Shown here piece by piece: positions 1 through 44,491 of a DNA stretch of 64,000 nucleotides. Positions within the stretch are counted from its first letter, which is position 1. Every line of letters starts with the position of its first letter. The position numbers and the translations under genes were made by a program. This DNA comes from Chondrosia reniformis. Its lineage: Eukaryota > Porifera > Demospongiae > Chondrillida > Chondrillidae. Below the pieces are notes generated by a model. The model did no database searches, was not told the origin of the DNA, and saw only the letters and a program-made list of their open reading frames with translations. The DNA lies in NCBI GenBank assembly GCA_947172415.1, contig OX359190.1:4402001-4466000 (forward strand), in the 5' to 3' direction.

Positions 1-1767
1 CAAAAGTGTGGATGCCATCCGGCCCAGGGACTGACCAGCTTTTTGCCTTTTTCAAGGTTTTCCTCAGTTTGGTCTCATCAATGCTATCGGGACCTTCAGA
101 GGAGGTTCTACCCACCCTCTTTTTGGTTCCCTTTAGCCATTCTTTCACCCCTGGGTCGTCTTTGTTGACCTTACCAACAGTACCTACAATCTTTGTCAAA
201 AAGTCTCTTTCTACCTCAATTGCAGGGGTTTCATTGGAGGCTAGAACATTGCCATTCATCCGGAACCTCCCTTGGGTATTCCAAAGGTGGTTTTGCTCCT
301 GGGATTTCCTGTGTTCAGCTGATCTGCGCTCTTTTAGGGTCCAGACCCTGAGTTTCCCCAGTGTCTGTTCTCGAGCTCTGACCAGAACATTCAGGTTTAA
401 TGAATGGAACTCCCGCCTAAGCTTTCTTTGGAGTATTTTCTGGCGTTTGGTCATAGGATTATTATTCTGTTGACGCACTATTTCCACATCCAACCAGGCA
501 AGCAGTCTTCTAAATCTAGGGCCCTTGGCCTTCCTGTCATTTACGTGACCTTCCTGTCTCTTACTACCCTTCGGATTGTCTGATTTCCTTCCATGGTTGC
601 ATGGCTGCGATTCATTGGTTGTTTTTCCCCTCACAGCCATAGCAACAGAGTAGACCAGGCAGTTCAGGTGCCAGGCCGACCTAGTGCCTTCCTGCCACTC
701 TTTCTCCACCCAATCATTGGCCTCCTGAAGCAGTGCTGGGTGAACATGGTTGAACCGCACCACCCCACAGAGTGTTCTATCAGAGAAATCTCCAGGTTTC
801 TTTCGGAGACAGGCATCTTTTGCTTTGCCTAAAAGTTCCATCAAATGATCATTGCCACTTGTCCTGGGACTGGGGTGACCATGTGTGGGAGTTTCAACAG
901 GGCTTGTAGGCAGCTCACCATTTTGTTCAGCCCCAGCTTGAACTTGGTGGAGCTCCTCCTGTCCCTGGGCTTCCACACCTTCTTCCACAGTCCCGGTTAG
1001 GGTGGCTACACCACGAGAGTCAGATTCCACAAGGTTTAGTCTCGGGAGTTTGACCTCTTCAGATTCTACCAACCCTTGCAGTTAGCGCTACCTTTGTGAT
1101 TTTATGGTCTGGCATTGCAGCATTCCAAGCTTGGTACAACCTCTCGGCATACCCCTTTTCCATGGGCTTACTTTCTCGGTAAAGCTCCATGAGGATATTA
1201 TCCCTCTGAAGGTTCCAGATCACCCCATGGATCCTTCTCCTTCTAGAGGCACCTTGTGGTGCATCATTAACCTAAATCTCTGCTATCCATTACTTGCAGT
1301 ACTCCATCTCCTGCCAAGTTCCTTTAAGCTTGGCAGGTAAGGGTTCGACCGGTCTGAGGCAAATTTGGGTATTTGCTCAGCCATTCCCGCTCTAAACACT
1401 TTTAGTGCCTTAGCCATTTCCTCGGTCCAGGAGCTTGGTAGGCCCAACACGGGGACCAAAGTAGGGCTATTACATTCAGGTACATCTACCTGTGCGGCAC
1501 CTGTGGAATCACCTATTCTGGTTGACCCAGGGTTTTCTTTACCACTGGTGCACCTAGGCCACAGCCTATCTTGAAAGTTTACATTCTCATAGCGCAACGT
1601 AACCCAGTGAAACTACCAGATGGGGGGTTAGCCCATGCTGGCAGGGAGGCTGATTTAGCCACTGGCTGCCACATGAAGGGCTAAGCACCCTGCTCCGTCG
1701 GGGGGTTGAACTGGACAATACCCATCCTCTTGTCAGCTGAGAACCACAGCCTTTAATTCCCACGACT
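1..1767 (-). mobile_element. RLE-type LINE, copy 1, 5' portion cut by the window edge
   Basis: The stretch is a diverged duplicate of 30490-32272: the same order and nearly the same bases from the RT-proximal part (base 1) to the element 5' end. The two copies stop matching at 1767 and 32272, which marks the 5' terminus. Minus-strand fragments at 1283-1597 and in 30-1080 correspond to the N-terminal half of the LINE protein (the 'GENPGSTRIGDSTGA' segment and a Myb-like 'WTEEM' segment). Frames are broken repeatedly, so the copy is dead. The RT core lies beyond the left edge. Confidence 0.8.
1283..1597 (-). pseudogene. N-terminal fragment of the RLE LINE protein
   Basis: This 104-codon reading frame aligns with 31791-32102 of the second copy over its first 60 residues, including 'STRIGDSTGA', 'VDVPECNS' and 'WTEEM'. 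The WTEEM segment begins a Myb-like helical repeat common at the N-terminus of RLE LINEs. The downstream frame is shifted relative to copy 2. No function remains. Confidence 0.65.
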
Positions 1768-2769
1768 TAACAATTATTCACATTCTCAGTGACTAACAAG
1801 ATCGGTAAACACGTTTGCCTTCAAAAATGGCCATGAACGGGACACGTGCGCAACTGTTGTCATCGCCATTTTGTTAACTTGCAGACTCAGCAACCACTTC
1901 ATGCTGCCTGGTAGAGGGACGTGCCTGTATCTACAGCATCCGATAAAGGAGGATTGAGTGTATATATATTTATAATCATCATCTTACTTACCATTTTTGT
2001 AGTAAAGCTGAAGCCAGTAACAGTTTAGCTATAGCCCTTGGAGTGGGAAGCAGTTCTTTGCAGAGATGGAATAATGAGTATTTTAGGAGGAAATATGACA
2101 TCTCAGGTGACAGGAGGGGAAAGTACAAAAGGTACAATTAAGTTACAGTGATATATCAATGCCACAATAACAATGTACATGTACCACTACATATAGGTCC
2201 TCACTACTTCACTAGGAAGATATCACCAGGAAGTCAGTAGAATGGTTGCGAGGTAAAATCCATGATGTAAAATACCACCTCACAAGTACCAACTACCAAG
2301 CTTTGTTTAACGAATATCTTCAGACTCTCACCTTGCCTATTAATTTCCTCAGAGAGATATTTGAGTCCACAGGAACCAGGTAAAATGTAGACTCAACCAG
2401 GTAAAATGTAAACATTTAAATGTACGATGACTGTCACCATAAAGCCTAATTATGCATTTCTGTATATATGTACATAAGAATACTTGAATTCAGCTACCAA
2501 GCTTACCGTCAGGGTTATAGGGATTGACATGAAAGACAGTATGTAGTTGATCACCGCAAAACCTATTTACACAAATAAAGCATCACATGGAAACTAAACT
2601 TCGCATAAATGCCCTGTTCAGAATGAAATGCATTATGTCAATGCAAAATGCATTTAATTTTTTACATAGGATAAAAGCATTGGAAGACTCTCACTTATCT
2701 CCTCCTACATGTGAGGATGGAATTCCATCTTGGAACTCATGCATTTTATTTGATACATTAATATATGAT
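1768..2769. other. No gene recognised
   Basis: AT-rich sequence with a short TATA-type run near 1960. I see no coding motif, RNA gene or structured repeat. Confidence 0.5.
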
Positions 2770-3769
2770 ATATGAAAGTAGGAAAACAACACCTTCATTG
2801 CTTGTGCACAGGTGATTCTGCGAGGCCTCGCTTTGTGGTTTTCATCTATCAGGATGAGACCGTATTCGATGCCCATGATGCGCAAACATCTGTGTGGGTT
2901 GATCCCATGAACGCATCTGCCATCAGACCCAAAGGTAAAGGAAATAGAATAATGGTCAGTGATTACATAGAAGAACATGTTGGCTAGATGAGACTGAGTG
3001 ACGAAGAGTTGTCAGAGGTTCGGTAGCAGTGGACTGCATTCCCACAGCAGGCTCACAAAGTGCTTCCAAAGTGATGGCTACTGGGATGCTGCAATTTTTT
3101 TGGAGAATGTGAAACAGCAGTCAGGATAGCTAAGTTCCAGTATCCCAGAGGCAGGTAACACAAATATCTCTTAGGTAGTTTTTCTACACTTTTGAGTGCT
3201 GTTTTCCTCTTGGCTTTACATTCATTCTACTGGTAACCAGTGTGTCCTCTCTGAAAGCAATACGAGCACTACTGTGGTCAAATATCCATACCTAGTCGTA
3301 TCTATATGGATTATACTTATGTGTTCTTTTAGCAGAAAACATAACTATAATCCATAGATATGACTAGGTATGGATATTGAACCACATTAGTGATGACATT
3401 GCTTTCGGAGAAGACGCACTGCTTACCAGTAGAATGAATGTAAAGCCAAGAGGAAAACAGCCAAGAATGCATCGAGGTACAGTTAATGATATAATTACCA
3501 CTACATTACCAAATATTACTACATCTTTATACACTAAATTACTTTGTATAGGACGTCTTCCAGATGGTGGCCCTCAAGAGAGGATGTTTCGAGATAGCAC
3601 ACCAAAGGAATTGGAAATTGTAGTGAGAGAGCGTGGTGTGAACACTGATGGTCTGACTAAGGCTGGTGTGGTGAATAAGTTACAGAAGTTGAATGATTTC
3701 AAATATGAGAAAAACCGTATGCAGATATACCTTGAAGAAAAGCGATACAGGTGCCTCGTCAGCCTCTAG
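2770..3769 (+). pseudogene. DDE-family transposase remnant, spliced
   Basis: Plus-strand segments read in order like one DDE transposase: 'FIYQDETVFDAHD' and 'PKGKGNRIMVSDYIEEH' (2830-2985, first acidic motif), 'GYWDAAIFLENVKTAVRIAKFQYPRG' (about 3078-3160 after a frameshift and stops), then 'FGEDALLTSRMNVKPRGKQPRM' (about 3405-3470) and 'ERMFRDSTPKELEIVVRERGVNTDGL' (3555-3660). A donor/acceptor pair fits at 3478 and 3551 (TTGTATAG). The order fits a DDE family found in sponges, cnidarians and fungi. The C-terminal third is missing and a short palindrome (3282-3377) sits upstream of the third block. Assignment to an exact superfamily is inference. Confidence 0.6.
3282..3377. repeat. 96-bp palindromic mini-element
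   Basis: Arms of about 34 bases, starting ATATCCATACCTAGTC and ending with its near complement, flank a loop of about 27 bases. It lies in what looks like an intron of the DDE remnant. This is the shape of a tiny foldback MITE. No other copy is obvious in the window. Confidence 0.75.
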
Positions 3770-3813
3770 GTATTTGAAACCCACCATGCATTCGGATCAA
3801 GGATTCAGATAAG

Positions 3814-5322
3814 ATGTTTCATGTTTATGTGCAGCATGAATGTTGGTTATGGTTACTAGCATGTCTGTTAGCTACATTTCTGTCTTTTGATCAAGGTTAC
3901 AATTATCTGAAGCAACCAGTGTCTTTGCCCACTTTCTGCAGGAATCCACCTACACAATGGGGTATGGAACATGACAGAGTAGTTCCTGCTCATCAACTTG
4001 AAGAAATGCAGAAATTGACACTATGTACACCTTGTATAGTTACATGTGACAGTAATTCATATTTCATTAATGAATTGTTGAACTTGAATCGGTCCTGCGG
4101 CTGGGACCAGCCCTGTTGCTGGGGCACTAAGTCCTGCTGCTGGGACAGTTGGTCCTGCAGCAGGGACCAGCCCTGTGGCTGGGGCACTATGTCCTGCTGC
4201 TGGGACAGTTGGTCCTGTGACTGGGACCATAGGCACTGTGAATGGGATCTTAGGATCTGGGGATGTGAGCATAAACTTAGTAGATGCAGCAATTATGAAA
4301 GTTACACTCTTAAAGAATTACCAATGTATGTTGCAGCAGTGCACGATTATGTAAGAATCACTGGCACTGCTGCAAATGGGAATTGTTACAGCCATTGTAC
4401 TACTATATTTCTGTACTGTAAAGATAAGACAATGAAGAATTATGCATTTATTTTCAGTATCATTGATACTGGTATGCGTACTTTCACTTGCCATAGGCAG
4501 TACTGGCTTAGATGCACACTGCAGCTGCTATTACACAGAAGGCGTTATTGTAAGCGTAATTACACTTTAGCTAAAGTGTTTAGTTTGTTATTGCTCCTTG
4601 GAGGAGACATAGAATCAAACCCAGGTCCTTCAAAGGAATGGCTTAGGAAACAGGCCAAGAAACAAAATTATCTGTTGCAAAGAGACAAAATATTGGAAAA
4701 GCCAAGGCTTGATTATGCAGAGAATCCAGAACCAAAACGACTAGCATCCAAAGCAAGCTATGAAAGTAATACAGAAGCCATGAAGGCTGCTGCTAAAGCA
4801 AGCTACTCTGCAAATCCTGAACCCAAGAAGGCTGTTGCTAAAGTGCATTACTCTGCCAACCCAGAAGCCAAGAAAGCTGCCTCTAGAGTAAAGTATTCTG
4901 CTAATCCTGAAGCCATAAAGGCTGCCGCTAAAGCGAGCTACTCTGCTAATCCTGAAGCCATAAAGGCTGCCGCTAAAGCGAGCTACTCTGCAAATCCTGA
5001 ACCCAAGAAGGCTGTTGCTAAAGTGCATTACTCTGCCAACCCAGAAGCCAAGAAAGCTGCCTCTAGAGCAAAGTATTCTGCAAAAACTGAACCCAAGAAG
5101 GCTGCTGCTAATGTTCATTACTCTGTAAATCCTGAACCCAAGAAGGCTGTTGCTAAAGTGCATTACTCTGCCAACCCAGAAGCCAAGAAAGCTGCCTCTA
5201 GAGCAAAGTATTCTGCAAATCCTGTACCCAAGAAGGCTGCTGCTAAAGTTCATTACTCTGCCAACCCAGAAGCCAAACGGGCTGCTTCTAAAGCAAAGTA
5301 CTGTAGTAACACTAATCCATGA
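3814..5322 (+). CDS. Helitron H1 N-terminal polyprotein region with 2A-like motif and tandem repeats
   Basis: A 502-codon open frame. The family start is probably the ATG at 3786 (CACCATG, also used by H2 at 24746), but H1 has a stop eight codons later, so 3814 is the first usable start in frame. Order: hydrophobic N-terminus (residues 5-30); Cys/Trp-rich repeats (94-151); a basic, Leu-rich stretch (227-263); the 2A-like motif GDIESNPGP (264-272); 'SKEWLRKQAKKQ'; then about 14 repeats of 14 residues around SANPEAKKAAxKxxY. 2A motifs make the ribosome skip the G-P bond, which would release the N-terminal 271 residues from the Rep/helicase part. The ORF ends by frameshift; family coding continues to about 5450. 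Confidence 0.8.
   Translation: MFHVYVQHECWLWLLACLLATFLSFDQGYNYLKQPVSLPTFCRNPPTQWGMEHDRVVPAHQLEEMQKLTLCTPCIVTCDSNSYFINELLNLNRSCGWDQPCCWGTKSCCWDSWSCSRDQPCGWGTMSCCWDSWSCDWDHRHCEWDLRIWGCEHKLSRCSNYESYTLKELPMYVAAVHDYVRITGTAANGNCYSHCTTIFLYCKDKTMKNYAFIFSIIDTGMRTFTCHRQYWLRCTLQLLLHRRRYCKRNYTLAKVFSLLLLLGGDIESNPGPSKEWLRKQAKKQNYLLQRDKILEKPRLDYAENPEPKRLASKASYESNTEAMKAAAKASYSANPEPKKAVAKVHYSANPEAKKAASRVKYSANPEAIKAAAKASYSANPEAIKAAAKASYSANPEPKKAVAKVHYSANPEAKKAASRAKYSAKTEPKKAAANVHYSVNPEPKKAVAKVHYSANPEAKKAASRAKYSANPVPKKAAAKVHYSANPEAKRAASKAKYCSNTNP
4093..4266 (+). repeat. Cys/Trp-rich coding minisatellite
   Basis: A 60-bp unit repeats twice (built from 15-bp subunits) and encodes CCWDSW, CGWG and CEWD type motifs in the frame that is open on both sides. 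H2 has the matching region as a 30-bp unit encoding CGWDYWPCGW. Other frames are also open and would read Gly-Pro-Val-Ala-Gly repeats. I prefer the Cys/Trp frame because it joins the flanking conserved sequence without a shift in both copies. Confidence 0.7.
4603..4629 (+). other. 2A-like ribosome-skipping motif in Helitron H1
   Basis: Encodes GDIESNPGP, an exact match to the D[VI]ExNPGP consensus, preceded by the Leu-rich run SLLLLLG typical of 2A upstream helices. The match is conserved in H2 (23937-23963). Activity is inferred from the motif. Confidence 0.85.
4708..5310 (+). repeat. 42-bp / 14-residue coding tandem repeats
   Basis: About 14 units with consensus YSANPEAKKAAAK (Tyr-anchored, Ala/Lys-rich), some units duplicated almost exactly (for example 4900-4941 and 4942-4983). 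H2 carries a more diverged version (23400-23830). Such repeats probably form a basic helical array; a nucleic-acid-binding role is conceivable but not shown. Confidence 0.85.
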
Positions 5323-5452
5323 AAGCTGCCTTAAGAGTGAGCTACAAATGCAAATCAAGTTTGGCAAAAGCAGCCTCCAGGGCAAACTACTTAAAAAGAC
5401 GATGGATTAAAATGGCTGCATCAAAGGCTAATTATGAACAGAAAAGGACCAT

Positions 5453-6304
5453 GTGAACCTTTATCGCAGAGGTAAGTATGCTCTAAACGAACCAAAGGCA
5501 TATGCTAGACATCAGTATGCAGTGAAGTTACAGAAAAAGCTATTTTCAAAGCCTTCCTTGAGACTGCTTTTACGAAAAGGCTTTAAAGAAAGTCATGAAA
5601 GCATTGCAAAGAAAATGTCAAAAGGTGTCTTGACAAAAACAGTATGCAGAATCACTGCACGAAGATTACTTGACAGGGTCTTCAAGAAGCGCAAAGAGAG
5701 AGTGGGACAGTTGCTCAAGTGTGTTCGAATGGTAAATTCCTTTGAACTGTCAATATTAAATTTGGGAGAAAGGTGGCATACTGCTTCGTCTGAGCCATTC
5801 TTTTATGACTCAACCTACATACCCACCAAGCGAGACACTGCCATACCAGTGGATGAGTATGGAAGGTGTTGCATTGCTGAGGAAGTAGGTGATCGAGACA
5901 AGAATACAATGAGCCCCAAAAAGTGGAAGTGCACAGAAGAGTGCAAGCTACCTACAGATGAAGAGCTTAGTTCCATTGTTGTAGCAAAGGAACAGTTCAA
6001 GATACCCATGCAAGAGCTCAGAAAAACACTCGAGTTCATGGACAAGGGCTGTCAGCATGGACACCATACAGATCGGTCCTTTGTAACTAAATTTGACAGC
6101 AAAGAAGATGAGCAAGAGCAGTTCCATGAGCTGCTAGGTCACCCACTTCCATGTGCTATTGGAATGTGCAATAGTCTGCTTAAAACACTCAGAGCTGCTG
6201 CCACTCACTACCCACAGTTGCGAAGGTTTCTGGTCTTGCTATATCCAGCAAAAAACCACCATCATCACATTTATACCATTGATGTGGCGTGGCACTCCAT
6301 TTAG
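5453..6304 (+). pseudogene. Helitron H1 middle region (post-repeat, unknown domain)
   Basis: A 283-codon frame homologous to 22262-23340 of H2. Conserved pieces include 'YRRGKYALNEPKAYARHQY', 'TVCRITARRLLDRV', 'LNLGERWHTASSEPFFYD', 'VDEYGRCC', and a Cys/His set 'GCQHGHHTDR' followed by 'PCAIGMCNSLLKTLRAAATHYPQLRRFLVLLYP'. It is separated from the repeat ORF by a frameshift around 5450 and from the next segment by a lesion near 6290 ('TIDVAWHSI', stop). No named domain recognised; the position suggests an N-terminal accessory part of the Rep-helicase polyprotein. Confidence 0.7.
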
Positions 6305-6390
6305 TTGATTTTGATCAACTAATGGAGGCTCCTGGCATCCTTCACTGTGAGGAGCTATGTTAGAGTGAGTGTGAATCATGTCAAGAGAAT

Positions 6391-7118
6391 TTGGCAGCAG
6401 GTCTTCCAAATCTGGAACCCTTCCTTCAAGTTAAGCATGCTACCCTGATTACTAAACTTGACAAGGAGGTGAGTGATGACCCAGAGTGTGCATGCTGTTG
6501 TTGTGAACGTTTGCACCAGAGAAAGAGTGTTACAAGCATGAAGAATAGTGACTCAAAATTTGTAACAAAAGCCTGGCAACAATTAAAGCACCACATATGC
6601 GAGCAGGACAGCGAAGCTGACATTTACTCTATGTACGTGTGCCAATACTGCAGGCCAATTCTTATTAACAATAAGATACCTTCACGCTGTATTCTGAATG
6701 GTTTGATAACTGAGCCTTTGCCTGCAGAACTATCTAACTTGGATGCTTTGAGCAGACAGCTTATACAACGAGCAAAAGCATTACAGACAATTGCACGATT
6801 AGGCACATACACAGCTACCCACAAAGGCCAGAAGAAATGGAGGAGGTTTGTCTGTATGATTTTCTTAAAGACTATGCAAAGTGCAGAGCCAACAATTCAG
6901 GACAGCGCAAGTATTGCAGACTTGCGAAGCCATGCCTCCCTAATCACAGGCTCTTTGATCCTAACAAAGAGAATCAGAGGGAAGATTACTTCTACTCCAT
7001 GTTGTTGTTGTTTGTGCCTTTCAGAAATGAAAGCACTCTGCTTGCAGAAAATGAAACTGCTGAAGAAGCCTTTAATCGCTCGATAGAGGCCAACTATGGC
7101 ATGTACAAGCACCATGAC
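6391..7118 (+). pseudogene. Helitron H1 DUF6570-like region joined by deletion to a post-Rep segment
   Basis: 6391-6815 reads a Cys cluster (ECACCCCERLHQ), 'YVCQYCRPIL', and 'PSRCILNGLITEPLPAELSNLDALSRQLIQRAK', the usual DUF6570-type lead-in to Helitron_like_N. After 'LGTYTA' (about 6815) the sequence jumps to what in H2 lies near 19290. From 6837 a different frame reads 'MEEVCLYDFLKDYAKC' and 'PNHRLFDPNKENQREDYFYSMLLLFVPF', a segment normally placed after the Rep tyrosines. About 1.9 kb with the HUH and Tyr motifs is absent. At 7118 coding is broken by the hAT insertion. Confidence 0.75.
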
Positions 7119-9993
7119 CAGGCCCGTCGGAAGCAGTTTTAGAGTGGTCAGGCCTATACCATCCCCTGCTACTGTTGCCCCCCATGTGCACTCCCAGATT
7201 CCGAGAATAAACATACCTGGGGCTACAAGACCTGGTTGTTTATTAAACTTTATAGTCATATTAATATTTATTGGCAGTTAAACTGCATGCATGGAACAAA
7301 AATCATGCAAAATAAACTTGAATAAGAAAATGTTCGGGCATAAGAAAAGGCAAAATGTTGTGTTACAGTAGGCTATATATCACTGAGAGTCACCTAAGTA
7401 AATTTACCAAACAGGGAAAGACGATGCTCACTGCCAATCACAAAGTCATTGAGGCAGTCAGCCAATGCAAGTGAATCACACCTGTCCTTGTGGACATGCA
7501 AAACAAGAAGGTTGTTCAGACTGACTTCAGACATGGTTGTTCTCAAGTACGTTTTCACTCTCCTCAAAGCAGACGCACTCCGTTCGCTAACAGCATTAGT
7601 AGCTGGCATCACCAGAAGCAAGTTGAGAAGGATGCACACCTGTGAAATGCTAACACGGACACCAGAGGAGAGGCTGCGAACGTGCTTGATGATCTCGTGT
7701 ATTCCAACAGTGGTGGCAGGGAATGCTGACTGGATAATGGATCGGAACAATTCCAACTGAGTGCGAAGTACCTGTGGATCAATGTCAGTGTCATAGAATG
7801 TTGCAATGAAACTGAGATCTTGTGTAAAGTCGGAACCAGCAGCTGCTGAAGTAAGAAGGCTCTCCAAGTGACAATAAGTCTGATACCCTGGCTGGTTAAA
7901 GCGCTGCCTGATACAAGCCAAGGTAGAATCGAGTAATTGGAAATACTCGGCATGAAAAAAATCTTGCACCGATGCTGGATGGGTGCCTTGTCCAGTGCCA
8001 ATCTCAAAGCGCTGTGGGACCTTGCGGTGACGAGGTAGTTCTGCGGCATTGACCTGATGCTTGTCTCGCAAAGCAGACACTTTACTCCACAGAAGTGAGA
8101 AAGATTCGTCGTTCCTCAGCCGTTCCAGAGTGGTACAAGTGAGTCGAGCCAAATGTTGGCTATCAGCAGCACTAAGTGATGGAGACTGTAGTGTCTTACT
8201 CAGGTTGTCTGTGTGGTGCATGATGCATGCTCCTAGGCAGAGGCCAAAGAGAAAATCAAACCTTTCCATCTGTGCTTTCACACCATTTATGCGGGCACGA
8301 CTTTCGGCATCGGCAGTGATCTCTCTAGCATCATCCCAGAACTCCAGGAACACGTCATAGTTGTCGATGATGCTCTGCAAGGATGCTGCTTTGACTGTCC
8401 ACCTGGTTAGGCATAGTGTGCGGAAGCCAGTGGTGCTAGGAGACATAGACACCTTAAGCTGCTGCTGTCACGCCTTGGAGAATATTTGAGCAGTTTCGAA
8501 ATTTCTCCAACAGTGTCCAGGACATCACACACCAGCTTACTTTGCTTCACAACATCAGCAACAGCCAAGTTTAGTGCATGGCCATAGCAGTGCGTAAATA
8601 CGGCACACTTCTCAACCTGGCATATTTGTGTTGCTGTTCCATTCCTGGATCCAGCCATATTGGCTGCTCCATCGTAGCACTGGCCTCTACAATTGTGCAG
8701 GTCCAAATTAAGACGAAGGATGACGTCTTTGATAACAGCCACAAGCGTATCAGCGTTAATTTTATCAACTTTGTGAAGGCCAACAAAATCCTCATGGGCG
8801 TCTAGTGTGCTGTCAACCCAACGAAAGCAGAGAACAACTTGTTCCCTATTGGAAGCATCTGTCACCTCATCTGCCATGATGGCAAAGTACTTTGCCTCTC
8901 GGATGGAGGTGGCAATCCCGCAGACAACAGAAAGTGCCATGGTCTGCAAAAGCTCATTCTGCATGGACCCAGATGTATACTTGTCTGTTTTCTTCATCAA
9001 CATCTCTTTGATGGCTGGATCGTCTTTGGCCCTCAACAGGAGAAGCTGATGAAAGTTGCTGTCTACCTCTGAGCCATCACCACGAATTGCTAGGCCTTGC
9101 CTTGCGAGATATCTCAAACATTCAGCTACACACATCAAGTTCTTACGATTTGCGGCCTTTTCCTTCGCATGTGCGCTGGATAACATTTCTCCAACATCTT
9201 TAGTTGTTGCGGGGATCGTTACCACAGCTTCCACAGCGGCTTTGTGACACCCACTGGCCTCGTGTCGACAGAAACCACCTTTCTTACCAGTAGCATCCTT
9301 CCAATTTTCATACCCACGAGAAATAAAACTGGCATCAGCTGTCTTCGCTGTTTTCAGAGTCTTGGATTGAGCAGCTTTAACACAAATGAAACAAAATGCT
9401 AAATCCCAAGCCTCGTCGTAATGGATCCAAGACCATTTCTGAAACCATTGAGGCTGAAACGATCGATAAACGACCGACTTGATGCCAAACGCTCGCTTAT
9501 GAAAACTAAATTTAGCTGGCTGGTTAGGGTGCTCACCGATGTCTGGCAAAGTTTCCAAATCGATACGATACTCATAGGATGAGCTTGTCATGTCACAGCC
9601 CTTCTCGCACGTAGAGCTAGAAGCGCTTACGCTTTGTCGTTTGGTAATTTATACAGTATGCATGCAATAGATTACACATAATGCGTGGGGTATTTCCGGA
9701 CACCTACGACGCTGCGCGTTCTCTTTGCACAAGAAGGGACTTCGACGTGCTGCTAGCCTACTTGCAGGAGGGCACAGTACTACTCTTTGCGCCACCAAAG
9801 TAATTGAGGCTCTTACTGCTTTCAACGCTAAGAAACTCAGCCCCAATCACTCATACTACTATCGCAGAGGTTGTTCAGTCCATGGGGGGTAGAAGATCTG
9901 TCTTACCCCATTTTTGGACATTTCTCAAGGACTACCCAGGACGAAAAGTGGTCAGGCCATGGCCCGAAAGCCTGACCTGGTGTGACGGCCTTG
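7119..9993 (-). mobile_element. hAT transposon inserted in Helitron H1, 5-bp target duplication
   Basis: Ends are CAGGCCCGTC (left) and, as reverse complement, CAAGGCCGTC (right). ATGAC flanks both sides (7114-7118 and 9994-9998). H2 preserves the empty site: its coding sequence reads CACCATGACAGATTG with no insertion, which proves the boundaries. GTGGTCAGGCC occurs near both ends as a direct subterminal repeat. Classical hAT elements make 8-bp duplications; 5 bp is unusual, though I recall hAT subgroups with shorter ones. Confidence 0.88.
7394..9591 (-). pseudogene. hAT transposase, ZMYM1-like, one frameshift
   Basis: Two overlapping frames make one protein of about 730 residues: 8407-9591 (start codon at 9591) and 7394-8452. 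Part 1 has a TTF-type zinc finger (WSWIHYDEAWDLAFCFIC ... GFCRHEASGCHKAA), then the DUF4371/RNase H-like core (FAIMADEVTDASNREQ, CRGQCYDGAANMAG, HCYGHALNLA). Part 2 holds the all-alpha insertion and the hAT C-terminal dimerisation segment (NAVSERSASALRRVKTYLRTTM, NNLLVLHVHKDR) with the expected catalytic Glu. The frame changes near 8450-8460 by a small indel. Apart from this it looks young. Confidence 0.85.
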
Positions 9994-10088: not shown

Positions 10089-10112
10089 GACTGTAGCAAT
10101 GGACCCCAAATT

Positions 10113-12152
10113 GTGGGGGAAGCAACAGCAGCTATGAATGATGTGCAGGAGTTGCAAGCAGATTGTGCTGATGAACTCAGCCTTGAAGTGCGAATTGAAA
10201 TGTTGAACGTAGACCAAGCACGTGTCTTTAAACACATTTCTGAACACCTTCTTCACCAACAGCGGCATGAGTCGGGAGTTTGTGAATGCTCACAATTGCA
10301 ACCACTGCATATGTTTGTTAGTGGAGCTGGAGGGACTGGAAAGTCTTTCCTCATTGAAGCCATCAGAGCTCAGGTGGCTGCAATATGGAAGGACAAGCAT
10401 GAAGCACTTCTCTGGGCTGTAGCTGCACCAACAGGACTCGCAGCCTTTAATGTTGGTGGTGTCACTGTACATTGTTTATTTCAGTTACCCATTGAGCATG
10501 AAGGGAAAGAAGCCGGCTATTGGGGACTGCCACGAGACTCATTGAAGATCATGAGAACAACACTTCGAGATGTGAAACTTTTTGTTATTGACGAAGTGTC
10601 CATGCTATCCAGTCTCAACCTGGCCTACCTTCATTTGCGCCTGGAAGAGGTTTTTGGGACTGACAACTGGTTTGGGTCAATTAGTATTCTCTTTGTGGGT
10701 GATCTTTTGCAACTGCCTCCTGTCAATGGTGCACCTGTGTTTGATAAACTGAATACCAAAGCAGTTTTATCAAAGCTAGGTTGCATGACTTCTATTAACA
10801 TATGGAGGGAAACTATTGTATATGATGAGCTTACCATCAATGAGCGTCAGAAAAGAGACCCACAGTTCTGTGTACTTTAGGATGAAGTCCGAAGTGGTTG
10901 TGTGTCTGAAGAATGTATTAGGATTCTGGAAGAGAGAGTTATCCAGGGTCCCATAGCAGATAGGTTTGAGGAACTGATGCAGTCTGGTCAGTCACCTGTG
11001 TACCTATTTTCTACACGAAAGGCATGTGAAGAATTCAATAGTAAAATGCTCAGCAAGTTGCAGTGCAAAACTGTTGAAATTTGCTGCACTGACGAAGTGG
11101 ACGAAACTAAGGGCATGCATAAATGGAGCAAAAAAGAAGCAGAAGAGCTAAAGAGACTGAACAAAGACTGCAACCTAACTGCTGGTTTAGAAGTTGTGCT
11201 TCATATTGGTGTTGGAACACGAGTCATGTTGTGCAGAAATACTAATACAAGCTTGGGGTTAGTTAATGGTGCACTTGGTACGGTTGTGGCCATTGGTGCA
11301 CACAAAGTTACAGTGAAGTTTGATCATATGAGTACAGAGTATGAAGTTGAAAAGGTGAAGAGTAGATTTATTGTCATGAGAAGAGTGTACGTTTACAGGG
11401 TACAGTTTCCACTGACTTTGGCTTATGCTATTACCATCCACAAGTGTCAAGGCCTTTCACTCGACTGTGCCATGATGGACCTCTCTGATCAGGTTTTCAG
11501 TTCTGCCATGGCTTATGTTGCACTATCACGTGTAAGAACACTTGATGGGGTGCACCTGGTTGCCTTTGACCAAAAGTCAATTATGGTTAGTTCCAAGTCT
11601 CTACTGGAAATCAATCGGCTACGACAGTTGCATAGACCAGACTTGATGGTCTACGCTTTGCTACATGAACAAAGTGCTAATAGAAAGCGAAAACTCCGTG
11701 GCACTTGTATGATTTTACCTAATCCAAAGAAGCAAAAGGAGAATTTGAAAGAAAAAAATGCGAGTAGTAAACATTCTCAAAAAAGGCCACTTTGCCTAAC
11801 AAAGCAAGACAAAGGGCAACTTGCAAAGAAAAACAATAACGGAGGTTGGAATCAATTGGAGCGATCTTCCTTTCGGTTCCATCCAGTTGACTCTAAGTGG
11901 CAAAATGAAGCATGTAGTAAGGTTGGTGTCCAATACCAACGTCCTTGTCGTTTTGGGTATGGCAGTCCAGACTGCCTTCTGGCAGGGCCCAATTTTCAGA
12001 CGGATACTTGCAGATGGCAATTGCCTTTTCCGTTCTTTCTCAATGATCATTACAGGGTCACAAGAAGGCCATCTAGCAGTTCGAAGAGCAATCTTGAACC
12101 ACATGCAAAATATTGCACCTCTTCTATTAGGAGCACATGTGACTCAGGATAG
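10113..12152 (+). pseudogene. Helitron H1 PIF1-type DNA helicase
   Basis: Superfamily 1B helicase of the RepHel protein, thought to unwind the donor strand. The frame runs from 10113 to 12152 with one internal stop (TAG at 10878; H2 has Leu there). Motifs: Walker A SGAGGTGKSF (10321-10350), Walker B FVIDEVSMLS, FVGDLLQLPPV, then AYAITIHKCQGLSLD and AYVALSRVRTLDGVHLV near the C-terminus, all consensus. Upstream 'LNVDQARVFKHISEHL' is the usual PIF1 lead-in. The frame leaves the OTU reading frame after about 11850, so one frameshift separates helicase from protease. Confidence 0.88.
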
Positions 12153-16590: not shown

Positions 16591-17154
16591 CTACCTCAAA
16601 ATGTTGTGGCTATGCACAATGTACATTGACTTAGCACTGCTGTCAACTGACAAAGTATGGTCCAAGTAGTAAGGACTATACAGTAGCCAGTTATCAGAAC
16701 TGGTGTCAAACACATAAATGTTAGTCTGCAGTAAATGAGCCAAAGTGAGGATTTCTACATCTGTACCCCATGCTCCATCCCTGTCCATGTGTGTGTCCTG
16801 TATGTACTCAGCAATACTGTTCTGAGTTACATGCGCTCCTAGCAAGAGGGTTGCAATCTTTTGCATATGGTTGATGATTGCATTTCTAACTGCAAAATGG
16901 CCTTCTTGTGACCCTGTGATGATCATTGAGAATGAATGGAAAAGACAATTGCCATCTGGAAGCATCCGTCTCACTGTCTGGAAGTTGGGTCGTGTCAGAG
17001 GGCAGCCTGGTGTGCAATGCCCAAATCGACAAGGTCGTTGGTACTGGACACCTACCCTACTGCATGCTTTATTTTGCCACTTTGAATCAACTGGATGGAA
17101 CCTAAATGAGCCGTTCCAATTGACTCCAACCTCTGTTGTTGCTGTCAATTCCAT
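16591..17154 (-). pseudogene. OTU cysteine protease domain of Helitron H2
   Basis: 187 codons. 'LPDGNCLFHSFSMIITGSQEGH' carries the Asp/Cys pair; 'THMDRDGAWGTDVEILTLAHLLQTNIYVFDTSSDNW' is the OTU middle; the frame ends 'SMYIVHSHNILR', where a small deletion destroys the context of the catalytic His kept in H1 (HFPQHFEVV). Upstream 'FRFHPVDSKWQNKAC' and 'RPCRFGHCTPGC' are shared with H1. Coding for OTU therefore follows the helicase in both copies. Confidence 0.82.
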
Positions 17155-17211
17155 ACATGGCTTCTCTGCAAGTTGCCTTTTATTTTGCTTTATCTGGTAA
17201 AGTGGCCTCTT

Positions 17212-17890: not shown

Positions 17891-18712
17891 CTACTTCATC
17901 GTGCAGCAAATTTCAACAGTCTTGCACTGTAACTTGCTGAGCATTTCATTGTTGAACTCTTTGCATGCCTTTCGTGTAGGAAATAGGCATACAGGCGACT
18001 TCCCAGAGTGCATCAGTTCCTCAAATTTATCAGTTATTGGACCATGGATAACTCTCTCTTCCAGAGTTTTAACACATTCTTCAGACACGCAACCACGTCC
18101 GATTTCATCCAGAATTCCACAGAATTGTATGTCCTTTCTCTGACGCTCATTGACTGTCAGCTCATCATATTCCACAGTTTCCTTCCAGATGTTTACTGAA
18201 GTCATGCAACCTAGCTTTGATAAAACTGCTTTGTTGTTCAGCTTGTCAAACACAGGTGCACCATTGACTGGAGGCAGCTGCAGAAGATCACCCACAAAGA
18301 GAATATTGATTGACCCAAACCAATTGTCAGTCCCAAACACTTCTTCCGGGCACAAATAAAGATAGGCCAGGTTAAGACTAGATAGCATAGACACTTCATC
18401 AATTATGAAAAGTTTCACATCTCGAAGTGTCGTTCTCATGATCTTCAATGAGTCTCGCGGCAGTCCCCAATAGCCAGCTTCTTTTCCCTCATGCTCAATG
18501 GGTAACTGAAACAAACGATGCACAGTAATGCCACCAACATTAAAGGCTGCAAGCCCTGTTGGTGCAGCCACTGCACAGAGAAGTGTCTCATGCTTGTCTT
18601 TCCATATTGTAGCCACCTGAGCTCTGATGGCTTCAATAAGGAAAGATTTTCCAGTCCCTCCAACTCCGCTAACAAACATTTGCAGTGGTTGCAATTGTGA
18701 GCATTTACACAC
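17891..18712 (-). pseudogene. H2 PIF1-type helicase, N-terminal half
   Basis: Walker A SGVGGTGKSF, APTGLAAFNVGGITVH, Walker B LFIIDEVSMLS, ILFVGDLLQLPPVNGAPVF and 'YDELTVNERQR' are present. It is open from 18712 to 17891. Immediately upstream the reading changes frame (a small lesion near 18720) relative to the Rep-linker ORF. Confidence 0.87.
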
Positions 18713-19755
18713 TGTTTTTGTTGGTGTAGAAGGTGTTCAGACATGCGTTTAAAGACATGTGACTGGTCTGCATTCAATTTGTCAATTCGCACTTCAAGGC
18801 TGATTTCATCAGTACAATTTGCTTGCAGCTCCTGCATATCATTCATAGCTGCTGTTGCTTCCCCAACAATTTGGGGTCCTTTGTCCTCGTCCTCTTTGTC
18901 AACAGAGAAAGTTGCCTCTTCTTGTCTAGCTTCATTAATCTCCTTTACTTTAGCATTTACTTTCAGCATTTGCTGCAATCTGTCATGGTGGCTGTACATG
19001 TCAGGGTTGGCCTCTACTAAATGAGAAAAGGCTTTTTCAGCAGATTCATTCTCTGCAAGTAGATTACCTTCACTTCTAAAAGGCACAAACAACAGTAGCA
19101 TGGAGTAAAAGTACTCTTCCTTCTGATCCTCTTTGTTAGGATCAAAGAGCCTGTGATTTGGAAGACAGGGCTTGGTAAGCCTGCGATACTTGCGCTGCCC
19201 TGATTTGTCATCTTTACACTTGGCATAGTATATAACAAAATCATAAAGGCAAACCTCCTCCATTTCTGCTGGCCTTTGTGGGTAGTATGTGTCAATGACA
19301 CTGTCTTCAAAGATTTCAGTTGAATTTGGATCTTCTTTTCCAAGCTCTTGCAGCTTATTGTGATCCTTCAGTCTGTGTTTCCTTTTGTGTGGAAAGGTGG
19401 TGTCAATCCACTGAACTGTGTCAGACTTTTCACACAAGTGATCGCCAATCAACAGATCGCTTGCTTCATAGAGTCCACACTCTCGAGAACGCAAACTTCT
19501 GATACCAAAGCTCCAAAGTTGACTGTACACACTTTTGTTGGAGCCAATTTCCTGCCACAGATCCTGCATGTTACTTCTTTCTGCCTTTGCGACATATCCT
19601 GTCACATAGTGAGCAAGGGCTAGTGACGACTCGGCAATAAACTGTACATCAATGTTTGCTTTCCACAGCAAAAGCAACAGAGGATTGTAATCATTTACTC
19701 TTGTCTCCTCTTCTGCCCGTGGAAGAGGGTATATTTTTTTCTTGATTTGAGGCAA
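18713..19755 (-). pseudogene. H2 Rep C-terminal part (tyrosine motif) and linker
   Basis: Reads 'VNDYNPLLLLLWKANIDVQFI' and 'AHYVTGYVAKAERS' (about 19583-19611). The YxxxYxxK arrangement is the Helitron Rep catalytic tyrosine motif that attacks and covalently holds the 5' DNA end. Next come 'LPNHRLFDPNKEDQKEEYFYSMLLLFVPFRSE' and the acidic linker into 'ADQSHVFKRMSEHLLHQQ'. H1 keeps only the part after the tyrosines. The nominal frame continues to 18445 but is out of frame with the helicase after 18720. Confidence 0.85.
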
Positions 19756-20208: not shown

Positions 20209-21490
20209 TTAATTTTTTAGGTAACTTCCAATCTCTGGAGACTCATATTCAGCACAACTGAATGTGAGAAACAGGGTAGGAGTACCCCATTCACGAAGCA
20301 TGCAACGCAGTTCATTTGACCTCAAGAACCAGTACTGCTTAGTGCCTCGAATGGACTGGAATATTGTGGACACGTTTGCTTCCACCAATTCATCAGCATG
20401 TGATACCTTGTCTAGGAACAACTGCACAGACATTCTTTGGTGTTCTGTCCTTTTCATCAAATTGTAAACCCCTGCAGAGAGCTCCCGTAATTCTTTCTGC
20501 CAAAGGAGAAAGCATACATATTGGGAATCTTTTCGAAAACGAGAGTCCTTGTTTAACAGCCGAGATTTGGCATACTCACTGGAGGAGATTTTTAATTCAC
20601 GTGGGTGAAACTCACCAAACCTACCGCTTGGGAACAGATGAGGAAAGCACATGACATCCAGGAATTTTTGGCGATTGTCAAGTGCATCCTCCTTTACACT
20701 AAGCAGTTTGTACTGTTCAATATCAGAAACTGTAGACTGCTTCACATTCAAACTACGAATGGTGTATGACTGAAAGCTGGACACATCTTCCTTACTAGCC
20801 TTTACTAACATGGTACTGGTTGCACTGTCTGCAGTTTCAATGACTTCTTGTGCAACCTCATTAATGCTTGTGTCAGCAACTTCTTTGTAAAGCCAATTTA
20901 TTTCTCCTAGCTTTCGAATGGCAGTCTTGACTGCACTCACATCAACATTGCTGTGCCAAATGACCTTCTCTGAAGGTATTCCATTGACCATGATGTACAA
21001 TTCAGGGTCAGGCAATGGCACATGTGGATCTTGGTCAGATTTCTGCGAGAGTGAATTGCTCTCTTGGTTGACAGTCTTCACATTTCCTAATGTTTCCAAA
21101 GTTTTTTTCAAAGGTAGGGGAAGAAAGAACATGGTTCCCTTACAAGCTTTCAGTGAATTGTAAATAGGCACTTTGGCTGTGTATGTGCCTAACATTACAA
21201 TTGTCTGAAATGCTTTCGCTCGTTGAATCAGCTGTCTACTCAAAACATCCAATTTACCTACTTCTGCAGGCATAGGCTCAGTTATCAAACCATTCAGAAT
21301 ACAGCGCGAAGGCACCTTGTTGTCATTCAGAATTGGTCGGCAGTATTGGCTCACATACAGAGAATCAATTTCAGTTTCATTGGTCTGCTCAAGTATGTAC
21401 TTCTTTAATTGCTGCCAGACCTTTGTCACAAACTTTAAGGCACTCTTCTTCATGCTTGTGACATTCTTTCATTGGTGCAAACGCTCACAA
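20209..21490 (-). pseudogene. H2 DUF6570-like and Helitron_like_N region
   Basis: 'VSQYCRPILNDNKVPSRCILNGLITEPMPAEVGKLDVLSRQLIQRAKAFQTIVML' is the DUF6570-type start. About 200 residues later comes Helitron_like_N: 'MCFPHLFPSGRFGEFHPRELKISSSEYAKSRLLNKDSRFRKDSQYVCFLLWQ', 'TIFQSIRGTKQYWFLRSNEL' and 'TLFLTFSCAEYESPEI'. 414 codons are open from 21453; homology extends back to the insertion point at 21503. H1 lacks everything after 'LGTYTA'. Confidence 0.85.
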
Positions 21491-21503: not shown

Positions 21504-22262
21504 TAGAGAACAATAAAAATTTTCTACAAAAATAGTGAAGATGTAGGGATGGCACAAAAAGCATAGAAACAAGAAAGGGATGTTACACAGTGAAGCATTA
21601 GCTATATATGCACGAATCATACAACACCCTTGCTTGTAGGATTCATGCATAGCTAATGCTTCACTGTGTAACATCCCTTTCTTGTTTCTATGCTTTTTGT
21701 GCCATCCCTACATCTTCACTATTTTTGTAGAAAATTTTTATTGTTCTCTAGTTTCTGTACTTTTTATGGAGCATAAGCTAGGAATTCGTTGTATTTTAAA
21801 CCACTTTGGTTTTGCAATCTTCGACTGATTATGACGTCATTAAAATGGCGAATTTATTGAGGTCTTGACTCTTGAGCCATGAAAACTGTCATACTCAATA
21901 ATAGCGTTATCGCTCTCGCTTCTACAAAAGAATACAGCTCGGAAAATTTAGAGTAATTTCGATTAAGAAGTAGTCCGAAGGCTTATTTCGTTTTTTAGTT
22001 ACAGCGGGCGAAGAAGATGAAGAAGAAGATGAAGAAGAAGAAAACGAAAATGGGAGATTTCAAAGTTCGTTCGTTTGCCAACGATACACGGTCGCTTGCC
22101 TTCAAGGCCAATTTATAGCATGTTTGTTCTATATTCAACTCTACATAGTCTCGTTTTGGCGATTTTCAGCCTAATTCGGAATTTCGCTCCTATACCAATG
22201 TATGGGGAAAACGAAACAACCCGTACCATCCCTACATAGAGAGTACTACCGTACTCTCTGAT
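21504..22262 (-). mobile_element. Non-autonomous Helitron derivative, copy 2, full length, inserted in H2
   Basis: Element orientation is minus: 5' end ATCAGAGAGTACGG with a terminal hairpin, TGTAGGGATGGTAC, GAAGAAGAT-rich stretch, 3' foldback, end TTCTCTA. H1 shows the empty site: CCAGAGT directly followed by GTGCATG. H2 has the same flanks around the element with no base duplicated or lost. Absence of a target duplication and a 3' end shared with the Helitrons support rolling-circle mobilisation in trans. Confidence 0.82.
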
Positions 22263-23340
22263 ACTCTGGGTCATCACCAACCTCCTTCTCTAGTTTAGTA
22301 ATCAGATTGGCATGCTTTACTTGAAGCAAGGGTTCCAGACTAGGAAGACCTGCTGCCAAGTTCTCTTGAGATGATTCACACTCACTCTGACATAGTTCCT
22401 CACAGTGACTGATGCCAGCAGCATCCATTAGTAGATTAAAATCTACTAAACCAAGTGCCCCATCAATGGCATAAATTTGGCGATGGTGGTTTCTTGCAGA
22501 ATATAGCAAGACTAGGAACCTTCGCATTCGTGGGTAGTGAGTGGAAGCAGCACGGAGGGTTCTAAGCAGACTACTGCACATTCCAATGGCACAGGGAAAT
22601 GGGAGGCCTAGCAGGTCATGGAACTGCTCTTGCTCATCCAGTTGACTGGTAAATTTAGCTGCAAAGCACTGATCTGTATAGTGTCCATGCTGACATCCCT
22701 TGTCTATGGACTCAAGTCCATTTCTAAGCTCTTGCATGGATTTTTTGAAAAGTTCCTTTGCTGCAACAATGGAACTAATCTCTTCATCTGTTGCCAGTTT
22801 GCAATCTTCTGTGCACTTCCACTTTTTGGGACGCATTGTATTTTTGACTCTGTCACCCACTTCCTCAGCAGTGCAGCATCGTCCATACTCATCCACTGGT
22901 ATGGCATTGTTTTGCTTCATTGGCATGTAAGCGGTATCATAAAAGAATGGTTCTGACGAAGCAGTGTGCCACCTTTCTCCCAAATTCAATGATGACAGTT
23001 CAAAAGAATTTACCACTCGAACACACTTCAGCAACTGTCCCACTCTCTCTCTGCGCTTCTTGACTACCCTGTCAAGAAGTCTTCGTGCAGTGATTCTGCA
23101 AACGGTTTTTGTCAAGACACCTTTTGACAATTTCCTTGCAATATTTTCATGACTTTGCTTAAAGTCTTTCCTTAATTCCAGTCTCAAGGAAGGCTTTGAA
23201 AATAGCTTTTTCTGCAAATCTGCTACATACTGCTGCCTAGCATATGCTTTTGGTTCATTCAAAGCATATTTATCTCTACGATAGATATTCACATGTTCCT
23301 TTTTCTTTTCATAATTTGATTTTGATGCAGCTATTTTCAT
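22263..23340 (-). pseudogene. H2 middle region (post-repeat, unknown domain)
   Basis: Open from an ATG at 23340 to the insertion. Homologous to H1 5453-6304 plus 6391-6490: 'YRRDKYALNEPKAYARQQY', 'TVCRITARRLLDRV', 'ERWHTASSEPFFYD', 'GCQHGHYTDQCFAAKF', 'MRRFLVLLY', then 'LVDFNLLMDAAGISHCEELC', which H1 has lost. A nonsense codon (RR*MK; Trp in H1) and a 1-base deletion separate it from the repeat ORF, so the ATG at 23340 is probably not a native start. Confidence 0.72.
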
Positions 23341-24134
23341 CTATCGTCTTTTAACATAATTTGCTTTGAGGCAGCTTTTCTCACACCTGAGTTGAATTTG
23401 TACCTTTTTCTATCTGCAGCTTTCTTCGCTTCTGGATTGACAGCGTAACATGCTTTAGCCGCAGCCTTCCTAACTTCAGAGTTAGCCAAGTAGTTGGCTT
23501 TATAAGCAGACTTCCTGGCTTCTGGATCAGAAAAGTAACTTGCTTTAGCTGCAGCTTTCTTTGCTTCTGGATTGACAGCGTAACGTGCTTTAGCTGAAGC
23601 CTTTCTAGCTTCAGAATTAGTAGAGTAGTTTACTTTAAAAGCAGATTTCCTGGCTTCTGGATCAGCAAAGTGTCTTCCTTTAGCTGCAGCTTTCTTTACT
23701 TCTGGATTGATAGCGTAATGTGATTTAGCCGAAGCCTTTCTAGCTTCAGAATTAGCAGAGTAGTTTACTTTAAAAGCAGATTTCCTGGCCTCAATGTTAA
23801 TTTCATAGCTTTCTTTGGATGCCTGTCGTTTTGGTTCAGGACTCTCTGCATAATCAAGCCTTCGCTTCTCTAATATTTCTTCTCTTTGCAACATATACTT
23901 TTGTTTCTTGGCCTGTTTCTTAAGCCATTCTTTTGAAGGACCTGGATTTGATTCTATATCTCCTCCAAGGAGCAGCAACAAAGTAAGTGCTCTGGCTAAG
24001 GAGCAATTACGTTTACAATAGCATCTTCTGCATAGTAGAAGCCACAGTGTGTATCTGAACCAGTACTGCTTCTGACAAATGAATGTAGGCTTGCCAGCAT
24101 CAACAGTACTTAAAATAAATGCATAATTCCTCAT
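23337..24134 (-). CDS. H2 polyprotein segment with 2A-like motif and repeats
   Basis: 265 open codons. Residues 1-57: 'MRNYAFILSTVDAG ... YWFRYTLWLLLCRRCYCKRN' and the Leu run; GDIESNPGP at about residues 58-66; then 'SKEWLKKQAKKQKYML' and about 13 diverged 14-residue repeats (ANSEARKAS, DPEARKSAF types). The frame is open upstream as well ('NDFIRITITAAKG'), so the ATG at 24134 is an internal Met of a longer polyprotein. Matches H1 3814-5322, with the 2A motif and its upstream basic segment best conserved. Confidence 0.78.
   Translation of the reverse strand: MRNYAFILSTVDAGKPTFICQKQYWFRYTLWLLLCRRCYCKRNCSLARALTLLLLLGGDIESNPGPSKEWLKKQAKKQKYMLQREEILEKRRLDYAESPEPKRQASKESYEINIEARKSAFKVNYSANSEARKASAKSHYAINPEVKKAAAKGRHFADPEARKSAFKVNYSTNSEARKASAKARYAVNPEAKKAAAKASYFSDPEARKSAYKANYLANSEVRKAAAKACYAVNPEAKKAADRKRYKFNSGVRKAASKQIMLKDDR
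23937..23963 (-). other. 2A-like ribosome-skipping motif in Helitron H2
   Basis: GDIESNPGP, identical at protein level to H1 although codons differ (for example Asn AAT against AAC), preceded by TLLLLLG. Protein identity with silent differences suggests the motif was selected. Confidence 0.85.
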
Positions 24135-24746
24135 TGCTATGCTATTATAGTACTGAAGTATAGTATTTTCAGTATAATGACTGCGACTTGTCCCTTTTGC
24201 AGCTGTAATAGTGATCCTTATAAAATCATTTGGAGCTGCAACAAACTTTGGTACTTCCCTGAGAATCTCACTTTCCCAACTGCCACAGTTATGGGACTTA
24301 TGGCCCCAGCAACAGAAGGAATTACCCCAGTCACAGGGCCAATAGTCCCAGCCACAGGACCAAATGCCCCAGCCACAGGGCCAATAGTCCCAGCCACAGG
24401 AACAAATACCCCAGCCACAGGGCCAATAGTCTCAGCCACAGGACCAAATGCCCCAGCCACCGGGCCAACACAAATTCATTAATTCATCAGTGCAATTAAC
24501 ACTACATATGGTAAAAGGTAGACACAGGTTCTGCATATCTAAAAGTTCAATAGCAGGAACAACTGTTTGCTGTTCCTCACCCTGTACAGCAGGTGGAGTT
24601 CTGCAGAAAATAAGTAAAGAGTCTGACACTGGTTGAAACAGGAGAGTAGCTGACAAATATGCCAGAAACCACACGACACAGCCACATTTCACATAACATT
24701 GTAAATTGTATAACTTATCTGATCTTGGTTCCAAATCCATGTGCAT
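24135..24746 (-). pseudogene. H2 N-terminal region: hydrophobic segment and Cys/Trp repeats
   Basis: Start codon 24746 in CACCATGC context. 'YVKCGCVVWFLAYLSATLLF' is a likely membrane or signal segment. After 'ELMNLCWPGGWGIWSCG' a TGA replaces a Trp codon; beyond it the same frame continues with CGWDYWPCGW-type repeats (about 24290-24470) and joins 'FVAAPNDFIRI' in frame with the 2A ORF. The alternative sense frame reads GPVAG repeats and does not connect. Role unknown. Confidence 0.68.
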
Positions 24747-43981: not shown

Positions 43982-43985
43982 CTTG
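43974..43985 (-). promoter_or_regulatory. TISU-type start (CAAGATGGCGGC) of the LINE
   Basis: Exact match to SAASATGGCGGC with the ATG as LINE start codon, only about 21 nt from the element 5' end. TISU elements combine a YY1 site with efficient initiation on very short leaders. An internal promoter role is inference. Confidence 0.65.
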
Positions 43986-44491
43986 ATCTTGCTATATCAC
44001 AGATCCATCAGATATGTCAGCCCTGACTTCCCACTGCATTGGCTGAGGTGCACTGAGGGAACTACAATTAGGGCAATTCTTTGCCCTAGCTAGCAGATCT
44101 TTGCCTGTGAAATAATATGTGCATATAGGTTTAGAGTCCCTTATTTTAACTGTTTTAGCTTAATGTAGTTAGTAATGTAGTTACCTTTCATATAGCTTAT
44201 TATGCCATCAGTACTTCCAAAGATCACTGGACCAAGACCAAAAAGAGACATTTTACTAAAACTGGATGAAATCCCACCATAAAAGCATTAATTTCCTCTC
44301 AATTATTTCCGATGATTACATTTTAACACTTAAATTAAAAATAATAATGAAAGAATGGTGAAATTGTTAATCAGTTCATAAACGATGACGTAATACCCGT
44401 GTGATGATGACGTAGTACCCCTGTGACGTCACATGACGTCACTCGTTACGATCCGTTGCTGGTCCGTTCTCTTCACTTGATCCTATAATCA

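Follow-up and report, generated by a model that had tools for sequence, protein, structure and literature searches.

Within the window (that is, the whole 64,000-nucleotide stretch of the Chondrosia reniformis genome analysed here), two Helitrons each encode the peptide GDIESNPGP, which conforms to the core (D/G/C/N)(V/I)ExNPGP of 2A, or StopGo, sequences. The question that this locus raises is whether the peptide is incidental, a fragment of some other element, or a site within the transposon's own polyprotein at which one ORF would be translated into a separate leader and a replicase (the Rep-helicase protein, termed here RepHel). The comparisons described below point to the last of these: very probably these elements possess a conserved 2A ribosome-skipping site within a single-ORF Helitron polyprotein.

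As holders of 2A sequences the accessible portion of PMC11512398 (2024) names viruses, non-LTR retrotransposons (trypanosome L1Tc and APE-type LINEs of animals) and NLR sequences. No description of a 2A in Helitrons was found in the literature searched, whose scope excluded most subscription papers, among them the survey of eukaryotic 2A by Rao et al. (2025); should Helitrons figure in that survey, the present observation would be less novel. As judged from sequence, a known mechanism would here appear in a new setting, and a 2A conserved in a class of DNA transposons would widen the natural range of 2A recoding. It would also imply that two or three proteins arise from one ORF, RepHel not being the sole product of these Helitrons; that gene models starting past the 2A miss the leader; and that the full ORF, if expressed, should give a replicase with an N-terminal proline.

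Two disrupted Helitrons and a shared motif

Scanning all six frames of the window for NPGP or D-x-E-x-NPG yields three places, namely one in each Helitron (termed copy A and copy B) and one in a LINE. In both Helitrons GDIESNPGP directly follows a Leu-rich run, just as the preliminary description had stated (Table 1), and two of the nine core codons differ between the copies, both silently. The LINE (40574-43996, minus strand), which has RVT_1 and endonuclease matches, carries a 2A of its own near the N-terminus, LLLLSGDIELNPGP (DIELNPGP after LLLLSG), and represents a known kind of 2A use.

Matches across pieces of the two copies combined identify them as Helitrons: in Pfam, copy A matches DUF6570 and PIF1, and copy B matches DUF6570, Helitron_like_N and OTU. 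Neither copy is intact: copy A is interrupted by frame breaks and by an insertion that bears hAT-type domains on the minus strand, and several frame breaks interrupt copy B. The bounds first given for the copy A polyprotein have to be revised, for the ATG at 3786 is in a different frame from the motif, whose own frame has its first ATG at 3814, and the end at 5450 lies past a frame break, the frame stopping at 5320-5322. Immediately upstream of copy A is an inverted repeat (3198-3461) with arms of 108 nt that are 89% complementary and a spacing of 48 nt.

Table 1. Parts of the two window Helitrons (positions in nucleotides of the window) and of two uninterrupted relatives (positions in residues of the open frame)
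Feature	Position	Strand	Remarks
Copy A leader, from first in-frame ATG	3814..4602	+	Cys/Trp 7-residue repeats, basic block, LLLLLG run
Copy A 2A/StopGo motif, GDIESNPG|P	4603..4629	+	directly after Leu-rich run
Copy A predicted break	between codons 4624-4626 (G) and 4627-4629 (P)	+	
Copy A post-2A 15-residue (45 nt) repeats	4630..5322	+	stop at end, frame broken
Copy A polyprotein continuation	5438..7086	+	split into open pieces 5438-6304 and 6364-7086; the latter contains DUF6570
hAT-like insertion within copy A	7394-9648	-	DUF4371; Dimer_Tnp_hAT below curated cut-off
Copy A PIF1-type helicase part	10089..12152	+	two open pieces, beyond the hAT-like insertion
Copy B OTU-like cysteine protease domain	16591..17211	-	
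Copy B helicase piece	17891..18736	-	genome-wide query; nine best other matches 85-95% identical
Copy B DUF6570 and Helitron_like_N (Rep)	20209..21468	-	
Copy B post-2A repeats and replicase N-terminal part	22246..23936	-	frame break near 23340
Copy B 2A/StopGo motif, GDIESNPG|P	23937..23963	-	directly after Leu-rich run
Copy B leader, open part	23964..24431	-	Cys/Trp repeats, basic block, Leu run
L069 2A	290-298		after leader; followed by 15-residue repeats and DUF6570
L069 Helitron_like_N	1168-1355		
L069 PIF1	1797-1999		
L069 OTU	2379-2494		
L070 2A, GDVELNPGP	263-271		after leader; followed by different (STPR) repeats, DUF6570, Rep and helicase

Single open frames in related copies

Because relatives elsewhere in the genome (117,379,552 bases in 15 contigs were searched) read through as single open frames, the motif can be placed within the transposase polyprotein. 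L069, which belongs to the window family (family A), has a single open frame of 2,510 aa; L070, which belongs to a second family (family B) that is 36% identical to the window family in the helicase query, has one of 2,312 aa. Each contains, within one protein, an H-x-H motif, a Tyr pair and a PIF1-type helicase; the first two we take to be the catalytic signature of Helitron Rep (HUH Rep, two tyrosines). A Pfam-type domain search found no OTU match in L070, and at E values of up to 0.01 neither L069 nor L070 matched RVT_1 (reverse transcriptase). At a third locus (family C, C1:5.09 Mb; part of the frame was read, as L072), a leader match and a helicase match share one open frame of 2,523 aa.

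The in-frame link of the 2A to Rep/helicase is present in three families (A, B and C), in agreement with the original proposal that a leader and RepHel(-OTU) are joined in frame through the motif. The preliminary description had also named an observation that would count against it, namely a motif region lying outside the transcribed Helitron ORF; the single ORFs of L069 and L070 include the motif. Skipping is predicted to divide the L069 product into a leader of 281 aa and a RepHel with OTU of 2,213 aa, and the L070 product into a leader of 267 aa and a RepHel of 2,042 aa. Helitrons begin with 5' TC and terminate in 3' CTRR with a terminal hairpin; such ends were not found at L069, where similarity between copies extends to the 5' end of the stretch.

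Linkage of motif and helicase across the genome

The genome contains 126 matches (91 and 35 in the two parts of the search) to a codon pattern that specifies D(V/I/M)ExNPGP, and one match to the reversed control pattern. The helicase piece of copy B, used as a query, gives at least 138 matches, which merge into 115 loci; among the matches listed, 72 of the 115 loci have a 2A on the same strand within 15 kb upstream, as against an antisense 2A at three and a downstream 2A at six. These antisense and downstream counts are a better control than uniform placement (expectation about 0.9), because transposons are clustered in the genome. In the 72 paired loci, which draw on 70 distinct 2A places, the median distance from 2A to helicase is 4,155 bases (about 4.2 kb), and in 56 of them the 2A is sited 4.0-4.9 kb upstream. 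Where the helicase match lies in an open frame of at least 1,000 aa, the upstream motif is present in 21 of 23 cases (counted by eye). Two simpler accounts are excluded by these searches: a chance match, by the 126 matches against one for the reversed control and by the 72 of 115 helicase loci with an upstream 2A; and a feature confined to the window copies, by the leader and motif matches throughout the genome.

The remainder of each set was also considered. Fifty-six of the 126 pattern matches are unpaired, some of them being Helitron leaders (e.g., C5:4073786, C6:4212680 and C14:2913526) and one the window LINE; others have spellings such as DVEANPGP and DVETNPGP, in several copies. Conversely, 43 of the 115 helicase loci listed have no exact 2A within 15 kb. 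Five of these 43 were inspected, and the core was found mutated in two and a deletion across the site in one: L075 has GDVELNPGL; L079 (C6:4227802; helicase frame of at least 1,000 aa) has GDVELNLGP and a stop in the leader; and L076 has a deletion spanning the 2A site. The stretches fetched at the other two contain no Helitron leader (L077) or no recognisable leader (L078, C10:2814433; helicase frame of at least 1,000 aa). The three readable losses look like decay.

Motif class and selective constraint

Defined by codon spelling together with helicase identity, six Helitron families (A-F) retain the 2A in different codon spellings. Families B and C have the same leader type as the window family, A, and the leaders of D, E and F are unlike it. 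The residues before the D of the core are LLLLGG (A and B), LLLLAG (C) and LLLLSG (D), and end in HG in E and F; the core of family E, DMEQNPGP, has M in place of V/I and so falls outside the V/I core. The frame stops about 70 codons past the 2A in the D copy (L071) and about 30 codons past it in the E copy (L073), and in the F copy (L074) no stop is met within the stretch read; in these three families the 2A is tied to RepHel by distance and strand, and the tie is putative.

Among 22 copies of the window family aligned at the site (two partial-duplicate rows and six family B rows being left out), 13 fit D(V/I)ExNPGP. An in-frame stop within a matched stretch occurs in all nine copies whose core is changed, and such stops are likewise common among the 13 copies with an intact core.

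Selection upon the motif was gauged by dN/dS from simple Nei-Gojobori counts over few codons. L069 and L014, which represent two subfamilies of the window family, differ by 10 silent and 8 replacement changes from position -20 to the end of the core (-20..+8), giving a dN/dS of 0.17; the core itself has 2 silent changes and no replacement. This 0.17 stands against 0.79, 0.87 and 0.49 over the rest of the leader, as expected under the protein-level selection that had been suggested on the basis of silent codon differences; beyond the core, dN/dS is 0.18 in the first stretch, 0.32 in the repeats and 0.23 in the post-repeat region. Between L069 and window copy A the corresponding values are 0.15 for the 2A stretch, 0.65, 0.72 and 0.60 for parts of the leader, and 0.57 for the stretch after the core. 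The leader, which evolves faster, has the 2A at its C-terminal edge. Families B and C are separated, over the nine codons of the core, by 4 silent changes and no replacement. Between families A-C and D-F, replacement differences per site amount to 0.65-0.78 at -40..-15 and 0.51-0.76 at -14..-1, and to 0.05-0.16 in the core. The check proposed at the outset, namely to collect related Helitrons through the Rep/helicase sequence and to assess conservation and dN/dS over the motif, has in this way revealed a conserved 2A block. Conservation of the Cys/Trp repeats as protein is not claimed, because a 21-nt repeat can remain open in any frame.

Helitron proteins from other sources

A database search with the Rep region found 223 proteins, 120 of which were listed; the motif occurs in 11 of these 120, two of them having G or N for the first D. 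Among the proteins listed with at least 600 aa before Rep, 11 of 77 have a 2A and 66 do not. Related Helitrons without the motif, which, if intact, the preliminary description would have counted against its proposal, do therefore exist, and a universal Helitron feature is excluded; yet the motif recurs in six families and in other sources. The 2A is a feature of a lineage, not of Helitrons at large. The elements described here have in common with Helitrons and Helentrons with OTU (some relatives of which also have an endonuclease) DUF6570, a Helitron_like_N Rep with H-x-H and Tyr pair, a PIF1 helicase and, in family A, the OTU domain; they differ in the leader joined via a 2A that is added here. 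The named Helitron proteins listed, from oysters, other molluscs, fishes, lancelets and moths, have no 2A, and some of their models start late.

Searching with the leader region of L070 yields five proteins (P0003, P0004, P0005, P0008 and P0019), all with a 2A. Each has two such sites, 158-223 residues apart (these being five of the 11 proteins with the motif), and in P0003 and P0004, which were printed in full, a Cys-containing repeat cassette lies between the sites; skipping at both would yield three products. The first 350 residues of P0062 find 19 proteins, P0062 included, of which 13 have a 2A; the other six begin in apparent post-2A repeats, and their models may be incomplete at the start. 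In P0062, P0121 and P0130, which form one clade, about 30 residues separate the 2A from the predicted start.

The 2A label was traced on a tree of 135 rows, 21 of which have a 2A; family A is on a very long branch there, and many of the rows lacking a 2A begin past the point where it would lie. The label requires 10 changes (well-supported branches force 9 of these), as against 19.9 for shuffled labels: it is clustered, yet is spread over several clades. Both recurrent gain and an old presence followed by losses, together with truncated models, fit this tree.

Proposed mechanism and alternative explanations

The 2A in these Helitrons appears to be genuine and conserved and, as predicted from its sequence, is probably functional. 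As described in the accessible text of PMC12846837, a 2A class that was measured to be active is marked by an L-rich hexapeptide whose last two residues are a small one and G, by D at position 12 and by a preference for S at position 15; the hexapeptides of families A-D match the LLLLSG-like class of that source when compared by eye. Efficient skipping is expected here, since the same sequence class was measured active by others. At NPGP, the nascent peptide (the Leu run followed by GD(V/I)ExNPG) would block formation of the glycyl-prolyl bond; the leader (of the length given above for L069 and L070) would then be released, and the same ribosome would proceed to RepHel, starting with proline. 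Were there no skip, the hydrophobic, signal-peptide-like start of the leader in L069 and L070 would draw the replicase to the ER membrane; the 2A would free it for the nucleus, a step that we infer and that is the weakest of the scheme.

How general this hydrophobic start is was examined in 11 leaders by Kyte-Doolittle hydropathy (19 residues, mean of at least 1.6). The threshold is passed near the start in L069, L070 and P0062, and further in within L071 (family D) and L074 (family F); no part of the leader reaches it in window copy A or in five of the six database proteins. A Leu/Ile-rich run ahead of the motif is present in all seven contexts compared.

That run, together with the hydrophobic starts of the L069 and L070 leaders, is what one would also see if the stretch were kept as a membrane or signal segment, with NPGP incidental and no skipping; hydrophobicity alone, however, would not keep G-D-(V/I/M)-E-x-N-P-G-P across families that are otherwise unlike upstream, nor would it give 126 matches against one, and we regard this explanation as very improbable. 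Hardly credible is the notion that a LINE or viral 2A fragment was captured by chance beside a Helitron, outside its protein: the window LINE does have DIELNPGP after LLLLSG, but L069 and L070 are single ORFs with Helitron domains, the spacing is near-constant in 56 of the 72 paired loci, and the same leader block recurs in other sources, where the five matches all have a 2A. As the present state, a stray LINE fragment is ruled out by the single ORFs, an old capture being possible as the origin. A Helitron leader query against the genome gave no match at the window LINE.

Dual targeting of the kind found in sea-urchin NLR proteins deserves somewhat more attention, though it too is unlikely. 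Leader and 2A would then form a removable signal, and ribosomes that fail to skip would send RepHel to the secretory pathway on purpose. The hydrophobic starts of L069, L070 and P0062 would fit, as would the placement of the 2A some 30 residues from the predicted start in P0062, P0121 and P0130, which resembles that of the SpNLR signals in the accessible part of PMC4981915. A secreted replicase, however, is of no evident use to a transposon; the L069 and L070 leaders, at 281 and 267 aa, are not short signals; and P0121 is below the hydropathy threshold.

Ribosome skipping within the polyprotein may also be viewed more broadly. Tentatively, and as a possibility that we would not press, Helitrons may have acquired, perhaps repeatedly, a polyprotein that is divided during translation as in viruses, the 2A splitting from the nuclear replicase a leader that is peculiar to these elements and may be membrane-bound or secreted; some lineages, with two 2A sites, would make three proteins, and in the leader rolling-circle transposons would have a second functional protein, as yet undescribed. 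A signal-like leader start is seen in two families (L069 and L070), and the leader is Cys/Trp-rich. Modelled from a single sequence, the family B leader gives a mean pLDDT of 38, which is uninformative on fold.

Among the known systems compared with the site is the LLLLSG-like class of RNA virus 2A, which is alike in the core D(V/I)ExNPGP, in the G before D and in the Leu-rich hexapeptide; the S at the variable position matches the window family, and both precede a replicative product. The Helitron site differs in lying within a rolling-circle DNA transposon and in being known here from sequence alone. The 2A of non-LTR retrotransposons is alike in lying inside a transposon ORF, and differs in that neither L069 nor L070 has a reverse transcriptase match. 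The SpNLR signals likewise combine a hydrophobic N-terminal segment with a 2A, the short version in P0062 being similar, whereas the L069/L070 leader is long and Cys/Trp-rich and the downstream product is a Rep-helicase; in the sea-urchin NLR, according to the accessible part of PMC4981915, recoding is reduced when the proximal hydrophobic run is altered.

Further features of the leader region and of the window

Upstream of the main frame of L069 is an open stretch of subfamily A1 (L069:292-381), MAIALNVLTVFGLLTLTVLLSAPASLSLVS, with the look of a signal peptide and a donor-like GTAAGT at its end; an AG stands immediately ahead of the main frame. This stretch is possibly a signal-peptide exon of the Helitron gene, as the reading of its sequence suggests. 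Its counterpart in window copy B (26546-26457, minus strand) has GGAAGT where L069 has GTAAGT, and the surrounding 210 bases match the genome at 13 places.

Elsewhere in the window, an ORF for a DDE_Tnp_4 transposase (36655-38061, minus strand) adjoins one for a YqaJ-like exonuclease (35592-36194, plus strand), and an open frame at 55395-56114 (minus strand) is built of a repeated LLSYTRTTLDRLRTP-like unit.
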